Translations under genes and position numbers: made by a program | Shown: in pieces, positions 1-9,865 of the stretch | Layout: the number at the start of each line of letters is the position of its first letter | Position numbering within the stretch: position 1 is the stretch's first letter | DNA from: an uncultured Burkholderiales bacterium | Lineage (GTDB): Bacteria; Pseudomonadota; Gammaproteobacteria; Burkholderiales; Burkholderiaceae_E | Reading direction: 5' to 3' | Length of the DNA stretch: 35,687 nt | Assembly: GCA_903903975.1 (NCBI GenBank) | Contig: CAIVAS010000094.1 | Location: forward strand, 1-35,687 | The notes under the pieces: generated by a model | Told to the model about the DNA's origin: nothing | Databases searched by the model: none | What the model saw: the letters and a program-made list of their open reading frames with translations, nothing else

Positions 1-385
1 CCCAGACGCGCATGTCCATGACCTCGCGATACAGGACACGAGCCAGGAGCGCAGTGAAGACGGCCTCCAAGGCCAGCATCAACGACGCGCTGGTGCCGCT
101 GGTGTGCTGCAGGCCCCAAACCAGTCCCACCGGTCCAATCACCGCGCCGAAGAGGGCCATCCATCCCAAACGCGGCAGGTCCGTTTGGCGCAAGGCTGCC
201 TCTCGTTCGACGGGTTCACGCAGGAACGCTCCCGCCAGCGCGGCACCAAGGTACAGAAGACAAGCGGTCGTAAAGGTGCCGACCGAGGATCCTGCGCGCT
301 GAACCAAGGGAGTGCTGACGCCGAACAGGAAGGCTGCAGCCACGGCGAGCAGGCCGCCGCGCAGAGCAGGGAGGCTTCGGCTCAT
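1..385 (-). CDS. EamA/DMT-family membrane permease, N-terminal part (cut by window edge)
   Basis: Reading leftward from the ATG at 385 gives 128 residues that begin MSRSLPALRGGLLAVAAAFL and run off the window. Four hydrophobic segments are visible at about residues 8-28, 36-56, 80-100 and 106-124. The layout and the 'FGVSTPLVQ' and 'GLQHTSGTSASLMLALEAVFTALLA' type patterns (helices 1 and 3-4) fit the EamA half-repeat of drug/metabolite transporters, inner-membrane permeases of about 300 residues. The substrate cannot be told from the sequence. The gene lies directly behind an ArsR repressor: a ten-codon stretch from the ArsR stop overlaps this start, so the two are probably co-transcribed and coupled. 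No clear ribosome-binding site precedes the ATG. Confidence 0.75.
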   Translation of the reverse strand, partial: MSRSLPALRGGLLAVAAAFLFGVSTPLVQRAGSSVGTFTTACLLYLGAALAGAFLREPVEREAALRQTDLPRLGWMALFGAVIGPVGLVWGLQHTSGTSASLMLALEAVFTALLARVLYREVMDMRVW

Positions 386-413
386 GGGGTGATGAACGGG
401 CAGCAGGCGTGCA

Positions 414-731
414 TCAGCGTTCCCCTTCGACGTGGGCTTCAGCGATGTGCGACAACATGTCCGTCAGGACGCTGGAGATGTGCTGGTCCGCGGCCAGGTA
501 GAAGACCTGTTTGCCCTGGCGGTCGGCCTTCACGATGCGGGCAGCCCGAAGCAGGCGCAGGTGGTGGCTGACCAGCGAACTGCTGAGGTCGTGGCGCGCC
601 GCGATGTCATGAACGGCAACCGGGCCTTCAGCGCACGACAGAACAATGCGCAGCCGCGTCGGATCGCCCAGCAGTCGGAAGAGGTCCGCAAGCACGGTCA
701 CCGAATCGTCGCCGCCGGAGATTGACATCAT
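414..731 (-). CDS. SmtB/ArsR-type metal-responsive repressor (copy 1)
   Basis: This 105-residue protein is a winged-helix ArsR/SmtB repressor. The recognition helix lies at about residues 49-65 (SSSLVSHHLRLLRAARIV) and the wing at 66-80. The C-terminal helix carries D82, H84, H95 and E98, with the D-x-H-x10-H-x2-E spacing of the alpha-5 site of SmtB-like sensors. That predicts a zinc, cobalt or nickel sensor rather than an arsenite sensor; the Cys pair of ArsR-type alpha-3 sites is absent. Translation may start at 731 or at the next codon, 728. A perfect TGAACA-N2-TGTTCA dyad lies 11 bases upstream, which suggests autoregulation. Roughly 70% of positions match the second repressor at 4179. 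The downstream permease is probably its target. Confidence 0.92.
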   Translation of the reverse strand: MMSISGGDDSVTVLADLFRLLGDPTRLRIVLSCAEGPVAVHDIAARHDLSSSLVSHHLRLLRAARIVKADRQGKQVFYLAADQHISSVLTDMLSHIAEAHVEGER

Positions 732-741
732 TTCGTAATAT

Positions 742-755
742 TGAACACTTGTTCA
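742..755 (-). promoter_or_regulatory. ArsR/SmtB-type operator in front of repressor copy 1
   Basis: The sequence TGAACACTTGTTCA is a perfect 6-2-6 inverted repeat. It is the core of the operator type bound by SmtB/CadC-like repressors and sits just upstream of the repressor start at 731. A near-identical site (one arm mismatch) precedes the second repressor at 4143-4156. It may also influence the divergent ABC operon, whose start lies 178 bp to the right. Confidence 0.7.
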
Positions 756-932
756 TACGTTAGCATCGAAAGTCGTCTCCGATGAACGGCCTGAAGGTCT
801 CGCGTGACTCCCGGCACATCCGGAACCCTGGCTGCAACGCGGACCGGGGACCGGCCTCGTTCTTCGGAGTGCGAATGCACGTCGAGAACTGATCGGTCGG
901 CGGCCAACTCAAAAAAATAAGAATTTCGCCCC

Positions 933-2678
933 ATGAAGAGCAGCACCGCACCTCAACTCTCCATCGTCCAGGAACCGCGCGCTTTCGGCTGGGTGGACGC
1001 TGCGGTGATGCTCGCCCTGTTGGGCCTGTTGTGGAGCGCGCTGCACTTCGGCAAGGGCATGCTGGTGCACTTCGACCCGGCGTCCATGCCGCAGGTCGAC
1101 CCATCGCCCAGCCAGATTCCGTACTACGCAGGCCGCACGCTGCTGCGCATGTGGATCGCGTTCAGCTTATCGCTGCTGTTCGCCGTCGGCACGGGGTACC
1201 TCGCCGCCAAGAACAAGACGGCCCGCGCCTTCATCCTGCCGGCGCTCGATGTGCTGCAGTCGGTGCCGGTGCTTGGCTTTCTGTCGGCGACCGTCACCGG
1301 CTTCATGGCGCTGTTCCCGGGCAGCCTGCTGGGCGTCGAGTGCGCCGCAATCTTCGCGATCTTTACCGGGCAGGTCTGGAACATGGCCTTCGGGTTCTAT
1401 CACTCGATGGTCACCATCCCGACCGACATGCAGGAGGCGGCGTCGACCTACGGCCTGACCCGCTGGCAACGCTTCCGGACCGTGGAATTGCCGGCCTCGG
1501 CGCACAGCCTGATCTGGAACTCGATGATGTCCTTCGGCGGCGGCTGGTTCTTCGTCGCGCAGAGCGAAGCCATCAGCGTGATGAACAAGGACATCAAGCT
1601 GCCGGGCCTGGGCTCCTACATGGCGCAGTCGATCGAACGCGGTGACAACAACGCGGCGCTGTGGGCGGTCGTGGCCATGATCGTGTTGATCCTGGCCAGC
1701 GACCAACTGGTTTGGCGCCCGCTGCTGGCCTGGGCTGACAAGTTCAAGATCGAGCTGACCGAATCGGCGACGCCAGCCACCTCCTGGGTCTACAACCTGC
1801 TGCGCGGCGCCTACCTCTTCACCTGGCTCAACGAGCGGGTCTGGCAGCCAGTAATGGAGAAGTTGTTTCAAGCAGCGGACCCGAAGGCGCGGATTCCGAT
1901 TCGGCTCAACGAAACTGGCAAGAAGCTGCTGTGGCGCGCGATGGGCATCGTCATCGCGCTCTGGATGGGCTACGAGGTCCTGACGGCCCTGGCTGCGGCC
2001 GTCGCGGCCCTGCATGGCGCGCTGACTATCTCGATCTTCGGCCACATAGTCTGGCTGGGGTTCCTGACGGCCCTGCGCGTTGCCGCCATGACGGTGCTGG
2101 CCACGCTGATCTGGACGCCCATCGGTGTCTGGATCGGCTTCCAGCCCAAGGTCGCCCGCTTCGCCCAACCGCTGGCGCAGATCGGTGCGTCGTTCCCGGT
2201 CAACATGACCTTCCCCATCGTGGTCGGCTTCTTCGTGGCCATGCACATCACGCTGAACTGGGGCAGCATCCTGCTGATCGCGATGGGCACGCAGTGGTAC
2301 ATCCTCTTCAACGTGATTGCCGGCGCGATGGCGATCCCGAACGACCTGCAGGAAGCCGCGCGCGTCTACGGCCTGCGCCGCTGGAACCTGTGGCGCACCC
2401 TGATCCTGCCGGCCATCTTCCCTTTCTGGGTCACCGGGGCCTGCACAGCCGCCGGCGGGGCCTGGAACGCCAGCATCGTGGCCGAACTTGCGACCTGGGG
2501 CGACACCACGCTGAAGGCCGATGGCCTGGGGGCCTACATCGCCAGCGTCACCAAGACCGGGGACACGCCGCTGATCATCGCCAGCATCGCCGTGATGTCG
2601 ATCTTCGTCGTGCTGATGAACAAGTTCATCTGGCGCAAGCTGTACGCCTACGCCGAGCGCCGATTCAAACTGGACTGA
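933..2678 (+). CDS. ABC transporter duplicated permease, nitrate/taurine-importer type
   Basis: This 581-residue inner-membrane protein contains two binding-protein-dependent permease domains in one chain, at about residues 65-270 and 370-575. Each has the cytoplasmic EAA loop that contacts the ATPase: 'MQEAASTYGLTRWQRFRTVE' at 166-185 and 'LQEAARVYGLRRWNLWRTL' at 472-490. The best family match from memory is the duplicated permease of anion-type ABC systems (COG4986-like, related to NitT/TauT permeases). The two halves remove the need for a second permease gene. The ATPase gene follows two bases after the stop codon. No substrate-binding protein is encoded nearby, which is odd for an importer fold. 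The substrate is unknown; the setting among zinc-type repressors suggests metal-related transport, but that is inference. Confidence 0.88.
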   Translation: MKSSTAPQLSIVQEPRAFGWVDAAVMLALLGLLWSALHFGKGMLVHFDPASMPQVDPSPSQIPYYAGRTLLRMWIAFSLSLLFAVGTGYLAAKNKTARAFILPALDVLQSVPVLGFLSATVTGFMALFPGSLLGVECAAIFAIFTGQVWNMAFGFYHSMVTIPTDMQEAASTYGLTRWQRFRTVELPASAHSLIWNSMMSFGGGWFFVAQSEAISVMNKDIKLPGLGSYMAQSIERGDNNAALWAVVAMIVLILASDQLVWRPLLAWADKFKIELTESATPATSWVYNLLRGAYLFTWLNERVWQPVMEKLFQAADPKARIPIRLNETGKKLLWRAMGIVIALWMGYEVLTALAAAVAALHGALTISIFGHIVWLGFLTALRVAAMTVLATLIWTPIGVWIGFQPKVARFAQPLAQIGASFPVNMTFPIVVGFFVAMHITLNWGSILLIAMGTQWYILFNVIAGAMAIPNDLQEAARVYGLRRWNLWRTLILPAIFPFWVTGACTAAGGAWNASIVAELATWGDTTLKADGLGAYIASVTKTGDTPLIIASIAVMSIFVVLMNKFIWRKLYAYAERRFKLD

Positions 2679-2680
2679 CC

Positions 2681-4033
2681 ATGGACCCGATCCCGCTCAA
2701 GCATCCGCAAGCCGCTGCACCCGTGGCACAACTAGTTGCGGTCACGAAGTCGTTCATGACCGCGGGGGCGCATGAGCTCAAGGTGCTGGACAACATTGAC
2801 CTGGCCGTCAATCAAGGCGAGTTCCTCGCACTGCTGGGTCAGTCTGGTTCGGGCAAGTCGACGATCCTGCGCTGCCTGACTGGCCTTATCGAGCCGACAT
2901 CAGGGCGCGCGCTGGGCAACGGCAAGTCGCTGCATGGCGTCAACCCGGACGCATCCGTGGTCTTCCAAACCTTTGCGCTGTATCCATGGCTCACGGTTGA
3001 GCAGAACGTCGCTGTCGGGCTGATGGCCAAGAAAGTGAGCCGGGCTGATCGCGAAGCCGCCGTGGATCGCGCCATCGAACTGATCGGCCTGGGCAACTAC
3101 CACGCAGCCTATCCGCGTGAGTTGTCGGGCGGCATGCGGCAACGGGTTGGCATCGCACGGGCGCTGGTGTCACAACCCAAGCTGCTCTGCCTGGACGAAG
3201 CCTTCAGCGCGCTTGACGTGCTGACGGCCGAGAACCTGCGCCAGGAACTAATCAGCCTGTGGCGCAGCCCGGGCAGCGGCCTGAGCTCGGTCTTCATGGT
3301 CACTCACAACATCGAAGAGGCCGTGGAGATGGCCACGCGCATCGTGGTCGTCTTCCCACGGCCTGGTCGCATCGGGCTGGTGCTGGAGAACAAGCTGCCG
3401 TTCCCGCGCGACAGCAAGGACCCGGAATTCCAGCGCCTGGTCAGCGTCATTCGCGAGTCGATCACGACACTGACGCTACCGGACCTGCCGCCTGAAGTGC
3501 AGGTCTCCGGTCAGCCCATCTCCCGGGCCCGCACGCGCATGGAATCCATTCCGCTGGTCCCGGTGGGGCAGATCCTGGGCTTGATGAGCATCCTGGACGA
3601 CAACCCCGAGCTGTCCAACATCTACGACATCTCTGACGAGATCGGCAAGGAATTCGGCGAGACGATCGCGATCCTGAAGGCCGCCGAAATCCTGGACCTG
3701 ATCGACACGCCCAAGCAGGATGTGCGTTTCACCGATCTGGGCCGCAAGTTCATGGCCGCCGATCGCTTGGGCAAGCGCACGATCTTTGCGGAACAGGTGT
3801 TCAAGCTGCGGCTCTTCCACATCATCCTGGCGCTGCTCAAGGAGTACGAGGAAATCGACGCCGACCAGGTGATCAAGGACATCGCCAGTGCGCTGCCCTA
3901 TGACAACCCGGAGAAGACCTTCGAGGTCATGATCGCCTGGGGCCGATACGCCGGGCTGATGGACTACAACGCGAAGACCCGGAAGGTCTTCGTGCCTGAG
4001 GAAGAAGAGAGCGCCCAAGACACCCAGTCTTAG
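2681..4033 (+). CDS. ABC transporter ATPase with C-terminal AAA-associated domain
   Basis: The 450-residue protein powers the permease encoded just upstream. Residues 15-260 are a complete ABC ATPase: Walker A GQSGSGKST at 53-61, Q-loop Q96, signature LSGGMRQ at 148-154, Walker B ending D172-E173, and switch H209. The order and wording are those of the nitrate/sulfonate/taurine importer ATPases. From about residue 300 to 430 there is a second, helical winged-helix-like domain matching what I know as AAA_assoc_C (PF09821), a domain of unknown role found on this subgroup of ATPases. It could be a regulatory or sensing module. The ATG at 2681 follows the permease stop by two bases, so translation is coupled. 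Confidence 0.88.
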   Translation: MDPIPLKHPQAAAPVAQLVAVTKSFMTAGAHELKVLDNIDLAVNQGEFLALLGQSGSGKSTILRCLTGLIEPTSGRALGNGKSLHGVNPDASVVFQTFALYPWLTVEQNVAVGLMAKKVSRADREAAVDRAIELIGLGNYHAAYPRELSGGMRQRVGIARALVSQPKLLCLDEAFSALDVLTAENLRQELISLWRSPGSGLSSVFMVTHNIEEAVEMATRIVVVFPRPGRIGLVLENKLPFPRDSKDPEFQRLVSVIRESITTLTLPDLPPEVQVSGQPISRARTRMESIPLVPVGQILGLMSILDDNPELSNIYDISDEIGKEFGETIAILKAAEILDLIDTPKQDVRFTDLGRKFMAADRLGKRTIFAEQVFKLRLFHIILALLKEYEEIDADQVIKDIASALPYDNPEKTFEVMIAWGRYAGLMDYNAKTRKVFVPEEEESAQDTQS

Positions 4034-4178
4034 TGTGCGATCTGCGAGGCGCCAGCGTGGTCCGGAACGCAACCAACGGCTCGGCGCGTTGCGGATCCTT
4101 GTTGCAACGGCTTGAGGTGGGATCAAACGATGCGGTATCGTATGAACATGTGTTTATTTATTGATTCGAGAGTTGCCC
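4034..4178 (+). other. Spacer between ABC operon and second repressor
   Basis: This 145-bp gap holds no gene. An imperfect stem (CGCAAC around 4069 with GTTGCG around 4089) may end the ABC transcript, but it lacks a T-run. The right end carries the repressor operator at 4143-4156 and an AT-rich start region, so the promoter of the ArsR-CDF pair lies here. Confidence 0.4.
4143..4156 (+). promoter_or_regulatory. ArsR/SmtB-type operator in front of repressor copy 2
   Basis: TGAACATGTGTTTA is a 6-2-6 inverted repeat with one mismatch. The flanking text CGTATGAACA-x-GTGTT is shared with the operator of copy 1 read on its own strand. It lies 22 bases before the repressor start at 4179 and should give metal-relieved repression of the repressor-exporter pair. 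Confidence 0.68.
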
Positions 4179-4481
4179 ATGGCCACTGACAGCGACGTGG
4201 CCGAACTGGCCGATATGTTTCGCCTGCTGGGCGACACCACGCGGCTGCGCATCGTGCTGGCCTGCCTGAACGATCCGATCTCGGTCGGCGACATCGCTGG
4301 CCAACTCGAACTGAGTCCTTCGCTGGTCAGCCATCACCTGCGACTGCTGCGTGCGGCGCGTGTGGTCAAGGCGGATCGCCAAGGCAAGCAGGTCTTTTAT
4401 GCCGCGGCCGATCAACACGTCTCTGGCGTGCTGGCCGAAATGCTGGAACACATCGCCGAACCCCACTCGGACGCCGACTGA
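4179..4481 (+). CDS. SmtB/ArsR-type metal-responsive repressor (copy 2)
   Basis: This 100-residue protein is a close relative of the repressor at 414-731. The recognition helix (SPSLVSHHLRLLRAARVV) is at residues 46-63. The C-terminal metal site is D78, H80, H91, E94, again with D-x-H-x10-H-x2-E spacing as in zinc/cobalt sensors of the SmtB group. The ATG at 4179 is preferred over a TTG at 4161 because a GAGAG element precedes it at good spacing and the family start fits. Its stop codon overlaps the ATG of the CDF exporter (TGATG), so the sensor and the exporter it presumably controls are translated together. Binding of metal should release it from the operator at 4143-4156. Confidence 0.92.
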   Translation: MATDSDVAELADMFRLLGDTTRLRIVLACLNDPISVGDIAGQLELSPSLVSHHLRLLRAARVVKADRQGKQVFYAAADQHVSGVLAEMLEHIAEPHSDAD

Positions 4482-5533
4482 TGTCCCACGACCATCACTA
4501 TAGCCATGAAGGCCACGATCATGGACATGCACACGAAGTTTCGAGGCCGTCAGCCTCCCGGCACGGCCATGACCATGCTCAACACGACGGGCACGATCAC
4601 CACGCCGGACACAGCCACGCAGGAGGTCACCACCACCACGGCGACCCGAGCACCCATGGACGGGCTTTCGTCGTCGCCATCGCGCTGAATTCGATCTTCG
4701 TAGCCGTCGAGTTCGGCTACGGCTATGCAGCCAATTCGACCGCGTTGATGGCCGACGCCGGACACAACCTGTCAGACGTACTCGGACTCATCTTGGCGTG
4801 GGGTGCCGTCGCAGTGGGTCGCAGGACCCCGAATGAGCGCTTCACGTACGGGTTGCGCAGCACGTCCATCCTGGCTGCACTGGCCAATGCGATGCTCCTG
4901 CTGGTAGCTTGCGGGGCAATCGGCTGGGAAGCTGTACAGCGCTTTTCTCAGCCGCCTGCGGTGGCCGGCGTGACAGTGATGCTGGTCGCGGCCATCGGCA
5001 TCGTTGTCAACGGTTTGTCGGCCTGGATGTTCGTCAAGGGCAGCGAGGGTGACCTCAACATTCGAGGCGCGTACTTGCACATGGCCGCCGACGCAGCGGT
5101 GTCGCTCGGGGTCGTGGTGGCCGGCCTGGTCATGCTGTTCACCGGGTGGTATTGGCTGGACCCACTGGTGAGTCTGGTGATCGTTGCCGTGATCGTCATG
5201 GGCACTTGGGGTCTGCTGCGCGAATCAATGCACTTGGCCTTGAACGCCGTGCCGCCACACATCGATCTGTCAGCCGTGGGGGATTATTTGCGGCAACTTC
5301 CCGGCGTGACCGACATCCACGATCTGCACATCTGGGGCATGAGTACCACGGAGAGCGCGCTGACCGTGCATCTGGTGATGCCGGCCGGCTACCCGGGCGA
5401 CGCCGTGATCGACGGCATCACGCACGCGCTGAACGAACGCTTCTCGGTCCACCACAGCACGCTGCAGATCGAACAGGGCACGACCCAGCACGCCTGCAGT
5501 TTGCACGCCTGGCTGGTCGCAATTGACCATTGA
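4481..5533 (+). CDS. Cation diffusion facilitator (CzcD/ZitB-like metal exporter) with His-rich N-terminus
   Basis: This 350-residue inner-membrane antiporter exports divalent metal ions from the cytoplasm in exchange for protons. Residues 1-60 hold 22 histidines, a likely metal-collecting tail. Six membrane helices follow (about 62-260). The transport site shows the zinc-type HD-HD pattern: H95 and D99 in helix 2 and H200 and D204 in helix 5. The cytoplasmic domain (from about 265) has the 'GVTDIHDLHIWGMS' motif of the family. Zinc, with cadmium or cobalt as alternatives, is the likely substrate. It overlaps the repressor gene upstream by one base, so metal-induced co-expression is expected. 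The His tail is longer than that of E. coli ZitB. Confidence 0.93.
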   Translation: MSHDHHYSHEGHDHGHAHEVSRPSASRHGHDHAQHDGHDHHAGHSHAGGHHHHGDPSTHGRAFVVAIALNSIFVAVEFGYGYAANSTALMADAGHNLSDVLGLILAWGAVAVGRRTPNERFTYGLRSTSILAALANAMLLLVACGAIGWEAVQRFSQPPAVAGVTVMLVAAIGIVVNGLSAWMFVKGSEGDLNIRGAYLHMAADAAVSLGVVVAGLVMLFTGWYWLDPLVSLVIVAVIVMGTWGLLRESMHLALNAVPPHIDLSAVGDYLRQLPGVTDIHDLHIWGMSTTESALTVHLVMPAGYPGDAVIDGITHALNERFSVHHSTLQIEQGTTQHACSLHAWLVAIDH

Positions 5534-5839
5534 CCGACCGGTTTGGGGCGCTGAATTCGCCACCTGGAACTACTGCTGAGCGTCGGATGCCGCTGGTCAC
5601 GGGGAACTGGAGCTGTCGTTCGGCCAGCATGAGGCGTGCCTCCGCCACCGCCAGCGACCCCACCCATGTTTTGCTTGAAAGATCAACGAAAGCATCGGCA
5701 AGGGCTCGAGCCGGGCAGGCTACCGTATACCTCGCACCAGCGATGCGCCAGACGGCGAGTTGCGACCAATAGTTTAACCTGCTCCGGCAGCCTGCGGATT
5801 CGGTCCAGGTTGACCTGTGTAGCTGCACCGACCTTGGCC
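5534..5839. other. 306-bp gap with no confident gene
   Basis: Between the CDF exporter and the GST-like gene I found no recognisable gene. On the minus strand an open frame across 5534-5780 reads in part 'GSLAVAEARLMLAERQLQFP', and a second minus-strand frame at 5683-5877 reads 'VNLDRIRRLPEQVKLLVATR'. Both look protein-like but match nothing I recognise, and neither has a convincing start. The stretch may be the remnant of an older gene. The promoter of the GST-like gene should also lie here. Confidence 0.35.
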
Positions 5840-6529
5840 ATGCACGCATCGACGACGACACCGTACGCACCACCCACCCTGCCAGTTCCACAGTTGCCGC
5901 GGCTCTACACCTTTCGCCGCTGCCCGTACGCCATACGAGCACGGATGGCGCTGCTGCAGGCCGGGCGTGCCTTCGAGGCGGTCGAGGTCAGCTTGCGCGA
6001 TAAACCAGCAAGCTTGCTGGCCATATCGCCCAAGGCTACGGTGCCAGTGCTGCAGTTGCCCGATGGCAGCGTGATCGAGGAGAGTTGGGAAATCCTGCGC
6101 TGGGCACTGGCCGTGCCCGATCCGCAGGGCTGGTGGGCGCGGGCGCAGTCGCCTGCCAACCTGGACTTGGTGCAGCGCAACGACGGCGACTTCAAGCGTC
6201 ACCTGGACCGATGGAAGTACCCCCAGCGCTATTCGGGTGGGCCCCTCACGCCGGACGCACACCGCGACAGGGCGCTGAATGTCCTGCTGCAGCCACTAGA
6301 GGCTCGGCTGCAGGACGCGCCCTGCCTGGGCGGCGCCACGCCCTGCGCAACCGACTTGGCAGTGATGCCCTTTGTCCGCCAGTTCGCCTCAGTGGACCCA
6401 GGATGGTTTGCAACGCAGAACCTGCGATCAGTGCGGGTCTGGCTGGAGGGCTGGCTCGTCAGCCCGCTCTTTCTTACGTGCATGTACAAGTTGCCCGCTC
6501 AAGGTGCGATTCGCTTTCCATCGCTCTAG
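5840..6529 (+). CDS. Glutathione S-transferase-like protein (cysteine type)
   Basis: The 229-residue product has a thioredoxin-fold N-terminal domain starting 'LYTFRRCPYAIRARMAL' at about residues 22-38, where the Cys of CPYA takes the place of the catalytic residue in omega- and glutaredoxin-2-like GSTs. The pattern 'ATVPVLQLPDGSVIEES' at about 65-81 is the glutathione-binding loop (cis-Pro after Val, then E-S). Helical C-terminal domain: about 90-225. The ATG at 5840 is chosen because it gives a normal length; a longer frame back to 5636 adds low-complexity residues with no homology look. It may help thiol-based detoxification alongside the metal genes, but its substrate is unknown. It converges on the integrase gene. 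Confidence 0.8.
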   Translation: MHASTTTPYAPPTLPVPQLPRLYTFRRCPYAIRARMALLQAGRAFEAVEVSLRDKPASLLAISPKATVPVLQLPDGSVIEESWEILRWALAVPDPQGWWARAQSPANLDLVQRNDGDFKRHLDRWKYPQRYSGGPLTPDAHRDRALNVLLQPLEARLQDAPCLGGATPCATDLAVMPFVRQFASVDPGWFATQNLRSVRVWLEGWLVSPLFLTCMYKLPAQGAIRFPSL

Positions 6530-6723
6530 GGCTCGCTAGACAAGGGGCCGGTTCGAGGGGAAGCGGTCGGTCGCCCGGAAGGGTATCGAATGGCAGGTTT
6601 CGGCGCCCGCCGACAGTCGCTTGGCAATTCCAAACGGCAGCAATCAGTCTTTAGCCGTCGCTCGGGCGAATCGGATAGTCCCACCGCGATCGACGCGCAT
6701 CCTCATCGAACGGCATCGGACCA

Positions 6724-7983
6724 TCACACCGGCGCCGCCGTCGTCACCACCTTCATACTCGGCGGCAGCAACGTCGGCGTATGGCTCTCCCCCGCCACCC
6801 ACGCGTCGATCATGTCGGCCCACTCCTGCAGCATGTGGCGCCGCTGCTCGGCGTACTCAGCCTTGTTGTAGACCCCGCGCGATGAGCGGCCGTCCTCGTG
6901 GGCAAGGCATTTCTCGATCCAGTCGCCGTTGAAGCCCAGCTCGTTCAGGATGGTCGACCCCGTGCGCCGCAGGTCGTGCACGGTGAACGGCGCCAGCGGC
7001 AGGTTCGACTCCTTGGCCTTCTCGGCGATCACCTGGGTCACTCGGTTGAGCGTGGCCTTCGACATGCAGCGATCGGCGTCGTAGCGCGAAGGCAGGACGA
7101 ACTTCGACCCGGCCGCGCAGGTGTGCAGCGCGATGAAGATGTCGAGCGCCTGCTGCGACAGGTAGACGTTGTGCGGCTTGCCCGTCTTCATCCGCGACTT
7201 CGGGATCGACCAGACTGCGTTCTCGAAGTCGATCTCGTCCCAGGTCGCCTCGATCAGTTCGCTCTTGCGTACCAGCGTGAGCAGCACAAGGCGCAGGGCC
7301 AGCCGAATGGTCGGCAGCGTCGCTGTCGTCTCCAGCAGGCGGTGCATCAGCCGGATCTCGGAGGGCGACAGCGCCCTATCTTTCGGCACGAAGGTCGCGA
7401 TCGAGGAAGGCCCGACCTCGTCGGCAGGGTTCGGCGCCTTCTCGCCGTGCATGGCCGCGTAGGCGAACACGAGCTTGACGATCTCGCGGGCGATGACGGC
7501 CGTGGCCGGCGCACCGCGCCCCTTGATCTTGGCGCACAGGGCGCGCAGGTCCTCGGGCCCGATCTCGGCCATGCGGCGGTTCTGGAAGACCGGAAGGATG
7601 TCCCGGTCGATGATCGTCTTGCGCATGGCCTTGGTGCTGTCCGCCATGCGGTGCTCGGCCAGCCAGCGCTTGGTGTATTCGCCGAAGGTCTGGGCCTCGG
7701 CCTGGCGGCTCTTCTCGCGCTGCTTTTCCTGCGCGGGCGAGATGCCCTGCGCGATGGCCTTGCGCGCCTCCATGCAGCGCTCCCGAGCCATCAGCAGGGA
7801 GATCCCGTCCTTCGTGCCGTAGCGACCGATGGTGAGCGTCTCGCGCCGCCCGTTCAGGCGGTAGTCCATCCGAAAGCTGATGGTGCCGCGCGGGGTGACG
7901 ACCACGTAGAGCCCGTCACGGTCGGCGACCTTGTAGAGCGAAGCCTGCGGCTTCAGCCCTCGCAGCGTGCCATCTGACAGCAT
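6724..7983 (-). CDS. Tyrosine recombinase (DUF4102/P4-type island integrase)
   Basis: This 419-residue integrase catalyses insertion and excision of the island. Residues 1-90 match the N-terminal DUF4102 arm-binding domain ('GLYVVVTPRGTISFRMDYRL' in the middle). The core-binding domain spans about 98-185 and the catalytic domain about 205-385. The active-site set is complete: R239, K266, H336 and R339 (HDLRR), H362 and nucleophile Y372. It therefore looks functional. A strong ribosome-binding site (complement of CCTCCTT at 7992-7998) supports the ATG at 7983. It is read away from guaA, and repeated TACCGTCA motifs upstream are probable arm sites; one overlaps its likely promoter, so autoregulation is possible. 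Confidence 0.95.
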   Translation of the reverse strand: MLSDGTLRGLKPQASLYKVADRDGLYVVVTPRGTISFRMDYRLNGRRETLTIGRYGTKDGISLLMARERCMEARKAIAQGISPAQEKQREKSRQAEAQTFGEYTKRWLAEHRMADSTKAMRKTIIDRDILPVFQNRRMAEIGPEDLRALCAKIKGRGAPATAVIAREIVKLVFAYAAMHGEKAPNPADEVGPSSIATFVPKDRALSPSEIRLMHRLLETTATLPTIRLALRLVLLTLVRKSELIEATWDEIDFENAVWSIPKSRMKTGKPHNVYLSQQALDIFIALHTCAAGSKFVLPSRYDADRCMSKATLNRVTQVIAEKAKESNLPLAPFTVHDLRRTGSTILNELGFNGDWIEKCLAHEDGRSSRGVYNKAEYAEQRRHMLQEWADMIDAWVAGESHTPTLLPPSMKVVTTAAPV

Positions 7984-8008
7984 CGGCGATCCCTCCTTGG
8001 CGGAGAAT

Positions 8009-8164
8009 TCTACCGTCAGCCGAAAGAAGCGGCTACATCTACGCTAAGTGCTTGTCCCAAATGACATTTCTTGTCTTTTCTATACCGTCACGACTTGATC
8101 CGGTGTGACGGTAGAAATTTCGGGGACCCTAGCCACTCAGGATCTACCGCCAGAACTACCGTCA
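8009..8164. repeat. Five copies of TCTACCGTCA, probable integrase arm sites
   Basis: The decamer TCTACCGTCA or a close variant occurs at 8009-8018, 8081-8090 (TATACCGTCA), 8143-8152 (TCTACCGCCA) and 8155-8164 (ACTACCGTCA) on the plus strand, and at 8106-8115 on the minus strand. Such clustered short repeats next to an integrase gene are typical of sites bound by the N-terminal arm-binding domain. The binding role is inferred. Confidence 0.7.
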
Positions 8165-8182
8165 ATCTGAACCTCATCCCCC

Positions 8183-8267
8183 CGATAGTCCCTGATAGAT
8201 CACGACAGACTTATACCCATGCATATCAACAACTTACGACTGTTTTTCGACTGTCCTCGATAGTCCC
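8183..8267 (+). repeat. Second repeat pair CGATAGTCCC, with twin CGACTGT
   Basis: CGATAGTCCC occurs at 8183-8192 and 8258-8267. Between them CGACTGT occurs twice, at 8237-8243 and 8248-8254, exactly 11 bases apart, about one helical turn. The second CGATAGTCCC lies 14 bases from the guaA-overlapping core. These could be sites for an excision factor or host protein, or core-flanking integrase sites. Confidence 0.5.
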
Positions 8268-8281
8268 CGAAAGACGTCGAA

Positions 8282-8293
8282 TCATTCCCACTC
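8282..8293 (-). repeat. Attachment core GAGTGGGAATGA overlapping the guaA stop codon
   Basis: Read on the minus strand, the last 12 bases of guaA are GAGTGGGAATGA and encode the final Glu-Trp-Glu-stop. I recall this as the core of guaA-specific island attachment. Insertion here leaves guaA intact because the core regenerates its 3' end. The paired copy should lie beyond the left edge of the window. Confidence 0.7.
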
Positions 8294-9865
8294 GATCGTC
8301 GCAGGCGGCTTGCTCGAGACGTCATAAGCCACCCGATTGATGCCGCGCACCTCATTGATGATCCGACCCGACACCTTCTTCAGCAGCGAATAAGGCAACT
8401 CGGCCCAGTCGGCGGTCATGAAGTCGCTGGTCTGGACCGCCCGCAATGCGACGACATAGTCGTAGGTGCGGCCATCGCCCATCACGCCCACGCTCTTGAC
8501 CGGCAAGAACACCGTGAACGCCTGGCTGGTCTTGTCGTACCAGCTCTTGCCATCAGTGGGGTCGATGCAGGCGCGCAACTCATCGATGAAGATCGCATCG
8601 GCGCGCTGCAGCAGTGATACGAATTCGGGCTTGATTTCGCCCAGGATGCGAACCCCCAGCCCGGGGCCAGGGAAGGGATGCCGATAGACCATCTCGGACG
8701 GCAATCCGAGCGCTACGCCCAGCTCTCGCACCTCGTCCTTGAAGAGATCGCGCAAGGGCTCGAGCAGCTTCAGACCGAGCGTCTCGGGTAGCCCACCGAC
8801 ATTGTGGTGACTCTTGATGGTGGTGGCCTTCTTGGTCTTGGCACCACCCGATTCGATGACATCGGGATAGATTGTGCCTTGCGCCAGCCACTTCGCATTA
8901 GCCAGCTTGCCGGCTTCGCGCTGAAAGACCTCGACAAATTCACGGCCGATGATCTTGCGCTTGGCCTCGGGGTCGGTCACGCCTTTGAGCGCACCGAGAA
9001 ACTCGGCGCTGGCATCAACATGAACGACCTTGGCATTGAGGCGGCCTACGAACATCTCCATGACCATCTGCGCCTCGTTCAGTCGCAGCAGACCATGGTC
9101 GACAAAAACGCAGGTGAGCTGATCGCCGATTGCGCGATGAATGAGTGCCGCCGCGACACTCGAATCAACCCCACCCGACAGGCCGAGGATGACCTGCTCA
9201 TCGCCGACCTGCTCACGGATGAGCGCCACCGCCTCGTCGATATGGTCACGCATCACCCAGTCGGGCCTGGCACCGGCAATCTTGAGCACGAATCGCTCGA
9301 GCAGCGCCCTGCCCTGCACGGTATGCGTCACCTCGGGGTGAAACTGCACCGCGTAGTAGCCGCGTGATTCATCCGCCATGCCGGCAATCGGACAGCTCGG
9401 TGTACTGGCCATCAGCTTGAAGCCGGGCGGCAAGGCGGTGACCTTGTCGCCATGGCTCATCCAGACCTTGAGCATGCCGTGGCCTTCGACGGTCGCGAAA
9501 TCCTGGATGCCATCGAGCAATCGGGTATGACCGTGCGCGCGAACCTCGGCATAGCCGAACTCTCGATGGTTACTGGCCTCGACTTGCCCGCCTTGCTGCA
9601 CCGCCATCGTGAACATGCCATAGCAGATGCCCAGCACCGGCACACCGAGATCCCAGACCGCCTGCGGCGCGCGCAGATCATGCTCTTCGTAGGTGCTGGC
9701 ATGGCTGCCCGACAGAATGACGCCCTTGGGTGCGAACTCGCGCACGAAGGCATCGCTCACGTCATTGGGGTGAATCTCGCAGTAGACATTGGCCTCGCGC
9801 ACCCGGCGGGCAATCAGCTGGGTGACCTGCGAGCCGAAGTCGAGAATCAGGATCCGGTCGTGCAT
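8282..9865 (-). CDS. guaA: GMP synthase (glutamine-hydrolysing)
   Basis: The 527-residue enzyme converts XMP to GMP with ATP and glutamine, the last step of guanine nucleotide synthesis, in the cytoplasm. The N-terminal class I amidotransferase domain (1-195) has catalytic C81 (GICYGM), H176 and E178 (QFHPEV). The ATP-pyrophosphatase domain has the P-loop SGGVDSS at 230-236. The C-terminal dimerisation domain ends 'PPATIEWE', as in other GuaA proteins. It is the last gene of guaB-SIMPL-guaA, with a 15-base gap after the SIMPL gene. The island is inserted right after its stop codon and the coding sequence is undamaged. Confidence 0.98.

Follow-up and report, generated by a model that had tools for sequence, protein, structure and literature searches.

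In the attachment site of phage lambda, arm sites, an IHF site, and helically spaced excisionase (RDF) sites are arranged around the core. Among elements associated with guaA, islands with a P4-type integrase and AlpA have been described (Song et al. 2012, as cited in PMC7775301), and ICERspD18B (PMC7775301) and GIsul2 (PMC9376610) are likewise presented in their sources as guaA-associated elements with P4-type integrases. The attP of phage epsilon15 has the same core as these islands, with the 8-mer TACCGTCA on both sides of it. The epsilon15 record (AY150271.2) annotates four integrase sites, GTGACGGTAT; as two of these lie inside the integrase gene, the annotation perhaps derives from simple pattern matching. 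In the KplE1 prophage, whose target is a tRNA gene, an arm site lies over the −10 box of the integrase gene intS, attL covers the promoter, and autoregulation of intS through attL is reported, with the autorepression measured (PMC2951348).

We examined a 35,687-nucleotide stretch (the window) from an uncultured member of the Burkholderiales, in which five TCTACCGTCA-like decamers, two exact and three with one mismatch, occupy positions 8009-8164 between the gene for a P4-type tyrosine integrase and the end of guaA (Table 1). These decamers are very probably arm-type sites of the neighboring guaA-specific P4-type integrase, lying on the attL side of an integrated island. The evidence is of several types: site sequence, conservation, geometry, both ends of related islands, target site, and domain content. 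The locus shares with the guaA-associated islands, as those sources present them, the guaA 3′ end as target, the core GAGTGGGA, and the P4-type integrase, and differs from them in its arm motif, TACCGTCA, and in that its genome has no AlpA match. Like lambda, it has candidate arm sites, an IHF-like site, and helically spaced RDF-like repeats around the core, but the arm sequence and layout differ and the integrase bears a P4-type arm domain. Relative to epsilon15, whose integrase is about 51% identical, it has more exact sites and belongs to an island rather than a phage. Among the papers listed by the literature searches, none was seen to describe a TACCGTCA arm motif, although the 8-mer is listed in the epsilon15 record; where its occurrences in papers on integrases were inspected, they were chance matches, one within a primer and one within a column of ribosome-binding sites.

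Table 1. Features of the integrase–guaA region, in window coordinates, with the basis of each assignment
Feature	Position	Strand	Basis
Tyrosine integrase, 419 aa: arm-binding, central, and catalytic domains	6724..7983	-	Pfam PF13356, PF22022, PF14659, PF00589 and fold matches
−10-like hexamer TAGAAT, presumed integrase promoter	8007..8012	-	sequence; family comparison
Putative arm site 1, TCTACCGTCA, exact	8009..8018	+	overlaps −10-like box; position conserved
Putative arm site 2, TATACCGTCA, 1 mismatch	8081..8090	+	pattern match; family comparison
Putative arm site 3, TCTACCGTCA, exact, inverted	8106..8115	-	inverted site in 33/46 loci
Putative arm site 4, TCTACCGCCA, 1 mismatch	8143..8152	+	pattern match; family comparison
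Putative arm site 5, ACTACCGTCA, 1 mismatch	8155..8164	+	12 bp from site 4
Three GATAG/GACAG repeats, 10-bp spacing, probable excisionase (RDF) sites	8184..8208	+	sequence; role inferred
IHF-like site TATCAACAACTTA	8224..8236	+	exact match to WATCARNNNNTTR
Two more GATAG/GAAAG repeats, 10-bp spacing	8259..8273	+	sequence
guaA (GMP synthase), integration target	8282..9865	-	Pfam
att core GAGTGGGAATGA, last codons of guaA	8282..8293	-	identity to second genome drops just past core

The integrase gene adjoins the 3′ end of guaA that carries the core, as expected of a guaA-specific island, and both this gene and the TAGAAT box lie where the original prediction had placed them. In a genome of another genus (G029), the intergenic region is identical to that of the window at 298 of 298 positions, the integrase gene is 99.2% identical, and guaA is 71.8% identical. 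The claim of five near-identical decamers within 156 bp, one inverted and two spaced by only two bases (sites 4 and 5), held up in both a pattern count and shuffling. First, the interval 7984-8281 contains five decamers at no more than one mismatch, against a mean of 0.02 and a maximum of two in 2000 dinucleotide shuffles. Second, the largest decamer family within any 156 bp of the real window is the TCTACCGTCA family with five members, against three in 12 window shuffles. When up to two mismatches are allowed, the entire window yields 34 matches to TCTACCGTCA versus 19.2 expected, and two-mismatch matches outside the cluster therefore carry little weight.

Relatives were gathered by integrase sequence only, as the best 80 of 483 loci from a genome collection plus three viral contigs; a few of these 83 loci share contigs with loci from another collection of integrase relatives used in this analysis. 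For 74 of the 83, the 2.5 kb upstream of the integrase includes the C-terminus of guaA. The remainder are three loci at contig starts (L070, L095, and the viral L134), the viral L133 and L135, the tandem element L129, and L067, L113, and L077, the last of which retains only the final 28 codons of guaA. From the window and the 83 loci, L070, L095, L113, and L134 were dropped for a contig end or the lack of a core in range, and removal of near-duplicates from the resulting 80 left 46 non-redundant loci, the window included. The loci are related, so the counts that follow are not independent events.

As the original prediction proposed, the motif recurs beside the integrases of related guaA islands. 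The 46 loci (drawn from the best 80 of 483, the viral contigs, and the window) contain 169 copies of TACCG[TC]CA on either strand, a mean of 3.7, with at least three in 41 loci, two in four, and none in one, a viral contig; exact TACCGTCA is present in at least three copies in 38. Control stretches of about 300 bp from the same loci gave 0 copies in guaA (where two of the 45 stretches other than the window's were shorter than 300 bp), six inside the integrase gene, and 0 at 1.4 kb downstream. Further, the distances of the sites from the core cluster at approximately 127, 139, 178 (the inverted site), 202, and 274 bp, those of the window being 129, 141, 180, 203, and 275 bp. The two bases preceding the 8-mer vary by lineage (TT, TA, AG, and others), and their agreement within a locus is 0.65, compared with a permutation mean of 0.36 and a maximum of 0.41 in 1000 permutations, as would be expected if all sites of a locus were read by one protein. 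The notion that the repeats arose by chance is contradicted by both the shuffles and this conservation and can be given practically no weight.

To find the far ends of the islands, 18 genomes, representing 18 of the 83 collected loci, were searched for exact GAGTGGGARTRA. In 10 of them the contig carries another copy of the core on the same strand, 14-77 kb from the first in the direction of the integrase; in the other eight, no second copy was found on that contig. One of the 10, in Xanthomonas arboricola (G084), turned out to be attL of a further element in tandem and was excluded from the far ends, and two exact core matches on a contig of another genome (G060, C22) were set aside for want of an adjoining arm pair. 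At eight of the nine far ends counted, all 36-77 kb from the integrase, a site lies 70-72 bp before the duplicated core (four exact TACCGTCA and four TACCGTCG, which ends in G instead), and five of the nine have a pair of sites spaced by 12 bp. The Rhizobium tropici far end (L197) has no near pair, its only site being at −224.

The genome of the window itself (G000) has two far ends, on contigs C38 and C50, either of which may belong to the window's integrase; the assembly joins neither to the window. Each has exact sites at −83 and −71, with outlying sites at −249 and −305 at one end and at −293 at the other. The bases flanking the C38 and C50 sites (GA, TT) are unlike most in the window, and the 20-base pair of C38 is identical in G029. 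Arm-type sites thus occur on both sides of the core in relatives and, in G000, on separate contigs, and the expectation of the decamer at the far end is borne out. The window cluster taken with the C38 and C50 ends suggests for this group an attP with five sites in its integrase arm and three or four in its far arm; more distant members have one or two in the far arm. As to the window's own left part, no second core was found there, the best match to 12 bases of the core having two mismatches. A weak core-like sequence in the stretch that follows the integrase and ends at about 6643 was considered as an att site and rejected, both of its flanks being, by eye, common to near relatives. Separately, similarity to the compared related islands ends about 80 bp past the integrase, beyond which lie window positions 1-6643; the genes of this left part include ABC transporter, cation efflux, and glutathione transferase-like genes.

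The far ends bear directly on the proposal that the cluster is an operator for the integrase gene only, with no role in recombination. Site 1 does overlap a conserved −10-like box, and the KplE1 intS gene, as reported, is autoregulated through attL (PMC2951348). An operator of this kind would, however, leave unexplained the same sites near the core at far ends, 36-77 kb from the integrase, and we regard it as very improbable when set beside the arm-site reading.

The regions around the arm-type sites contain two further sets of candidate protein-binding sites. WATCARNNNNTTR is the IHF consensus. In 38 of the 46 loci (from the best 80 of 483), a match to it with no more than one mismatch lies at a distance of 68-79 bp from the core end, and in 16 this match is exact; as a raw count, these regions hold 54 same-strand matches in all. 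GATAG-like words at a spacing of 10 or 11 bp are present in 35 of the 46 loci, whereas 200 base shuffles reach two loci. Among pair spacings of up to 40 bp, 39 are of 10 bp and six of 20 bp, with no more than two at any other value, and the GATAG repeats occur at the far ends too. RDF sites have been described as direct repeats one helical turn apart (in the account of PMC7498355), and by that analogy the GATAG repeats are probably excisionase sites.

The two roles might instead be exchanged, the excisionase or some other regulator binding TACCGTCA while the GATAG repeats are read by the arm domain of the integrase, as both motif sets are conserved in one region and present at both ends. Against this, the GATAG-like pairs are mostly exactly 10 bp apart, the pattern given for RDFs in PMC7498355, whereas the TACCGTCA sites are scattered, with one inverted, and the epsilon15 record gives the 8-mer as a site of the integrase. 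The exchange consequently appears improbable, although it is only by analogy that the two sets are assigned their roles. Absence of AlpA does not decide the matter, because both sets persist in G000, where, at 98% completeness, no match to AlpA (PF05930) was found, near the integrase or elsewhere; in this genome excision may have been lost or may proceed via another factor. AlpA is annotated beside the integrase in two plasmid records with related integrases (NZ_CP155767.1 and NZ_CP076808.1), and a PF05930 match lies beside the integrase in G011 and on the contig of the integrase in G059 and G070. NZ_CP155767.1 (L136) is itself a 3975-bp circular ‘plasmid’ whose only annotated genes are guaA, the integrase, and AlpA, and is perhaps an assembly artefact or an unusual circle.

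The integrase is of the P4 type by its domain content, with a Pfam Arm-DNA-bind_3 domain in the N-terminal region and a phage integrase catalytic domain. In a structure model built from 34 aligned integrases (mean pLDDT 81.8, pTM 0.51), the first domain matches the solved arm-binding domains 3jtz and 3rmp, with a TM score by target length of 0.89 and an rmsd of 1.2-1.3; the title of 3rmp concerns attP recognition by P4-like integrases. The match to lambda integrase (1z1b) has an E-value of 3.3e-10, with a whole-chain TM score of only 0.31-0.37. The spacing and position of the decamers had been said to fit integrase arm sites, and this is supported by the relatives, the far ends, the Arm-DNA-bind_3 domain, and the matches to 3jtz and 3rmp. 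When covariation of the flanking bases with integrase residues was ranked, five of the top 20 columns fell in residues 1-90, all within 28-36; since the mean mutual information is equal inside and outside the arm domain (0.236 each), these residues are a lead only as readers of the flanks.

On the arm-site reading, the N-terminal domain of the integrase would bind the five decamers, IHF would bend the stretch from site 5 to the core, and the catalytic domain would be brought to GAGTGGGA, where guaA ends. The rest of attP would reside at the far end of the island, typically as a pair of sites 83 and 71 bp from the core, with one or two outlying sites besides the far pair in near relatives. The GATAG repeats, one helical turn apart, would probably serve the excisionase.

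Site 1 reads TGACGGTAGAAT on the integrase strand, and its overlap with the TAGAAT box is as the original prediction described. The overlap recurs in the family: AT follows the decamer in 14 of 46 sites no more than 70 bp from the start codon versus one of 90 farther same-strand sites, and five or six matches to TATAAT are made by 22 of the 46 proximal sites versus eight of the 90 farther ones. In five loci, both TTGACG and a −10 word, separated by a 16-bp spacer, are supplied by two sites 15 bp apart. In the window, no complete sigma-70 promoter was called at 7900-8400, and no convincing −35 was found for the integrase promoter. The idea of self-repression that accompanied the predicted promoter at TAGAAT is partly supported, with the conserved overlap in its favor and the lack of a called promoter in the window against it. 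Because site 1 covers the −10 region, bound integrase probably limits its own expression, and we lean toward repression of the integrase gene through site 1; the arrangement is like that of KplE1 intS, where the repression was measured, whereas here it is predicted.

The integrase family spans records of several proteobacterial classes by their titles, which we take to be the alpha-, beta-, and gammaproteobacterial ones. Among its distant members, the integrase of plasmid R485 is 57% identical to that of the window, and its element is taken as GIsul2 by gene order, the record itself not using that name. This locus (L308) has TACCATG at 283 and 215 bp and, inverted, at about 187 bp from a core remnant, with weaker TACCAGC and TGCCATG at 150 and 138 bp; in place of the window's motif, it thus has TACCATG-like words at similar spacings. 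In the viral contig L135, whose integrase is 56% identical, TACCC words occur at several places on the integrase side, less regularly, and beyond the core a TACCC-type pair lies 83 and 71 bp away. Since this pair stands across the core with guaA absent, L135 looks like an undivided attP. For R485, the comparison suggests that the order and near-same spacing of the arm sites were kept while the motif differs; for both loci the motif part is suggestive, because the words were sought post hoc with short patterns.

The least expected result is that integrase-less elements and one tandem array at guaA retain these ends. A sequence model from eight far ends, searched over 74 genomes of the family, gave 32 matches in 16 genomes, seven of the 32 being training sequences. 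In one genome (G072:C2:1-30500; L292, L293), six far-end-type att sites lie in one orientation beyond guaA, with exact cores spaced by 4.4-6.7 kb; tblastn found no integrase of this kind within these 30.5 kb, the genome's best match being 28% identical. An 11-kb guaA element in G065 (L295, C126) has a far end as well as five arm sites, but a GntR/aminotransferase gene takes the place of the integrase. A HigBA unit of about 1.1 kb, flanked by a core and an arm-site end, occurs in two genera (L240:1303-2365 and L169:16850-18090): in G055 it sits immediately beside guaA, and in G029 it follows an island end. Over 948 bp the copies are 97% identical, G055 having about 190 additional bases; they diverge at the core on one side, and the other end has no intact core in either. 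The integrase-less state may in part reflect decay, as G006 has an integrase remnant, and incomplete assemblies.

Genes beside such ends include those for AbiEii, a PIN toxin, HigB, BrnA, Wadjet JetA, Cas3/Cse1, and a ZorD-like helicase, as well as metabolic and signaling genes, the list being an unsystematic sample; in a PADLOC scan of 10 chosen proteins, seven had no match at E 1e-5. Around the C38 far end in G000 (L239, 93-4973), AbiEii lies on one side and a PIN toxin, a MazE-like antitoxin, and an AbiEii match below the Pfam cut-off on the other. In Stenotrophomonas, a defence island flanked by guaA has been reported (PMC11680222), and the GIsul2 integrase is described as moving an internal unit (PMC9376610). 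Cis-mobilizable elements and tandem accretion are known elsewhere (PMC5704250, PMC3146451), and the present elements resemble them, as those sources describe them, in being integrase-less units between att sites, in tandem at one target gene; the Dehalococcoides ssrA islands covered there use serine recombinases, whereas here guaA and tyrosine-integrase arm sites are involved.

These observations raise the possibility, which we hold only tentatively, that the guaA 3′ end is an att array in which integrase-less tandem elements are moved in trans by a visiting guaA integrase, with the site geometry fixed and the site sequence tracking the integrase. These elements would keep arm, IHF-like, and RDF-like sites, and some would carry toxin-antitoxin or defence-like genes, making the array somewhat a slow, lambda-style counterpart of the integron. 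As the motif changes with the integrase (TACCGTCA, TACCATG, and perhaps TACCC), the integrase of each lineage could move only its own class of cassette.

Arm sites of this kind are already known; here they are mapped at both ends of the island and across many bacteria. The result is a concrete attachment-site map: one core, flanked toward the integrase by five putative arm sites and, at the far end, typically by two, a number that reaches as many as four in near relatives. Such a map lets the ends of guaA islands be found without an integrase and makes minimal attP constructs testable. Further, the combination of a near-constant geometry with a changing motif would offer a natural series on how arm-binding domains choose their DNA.
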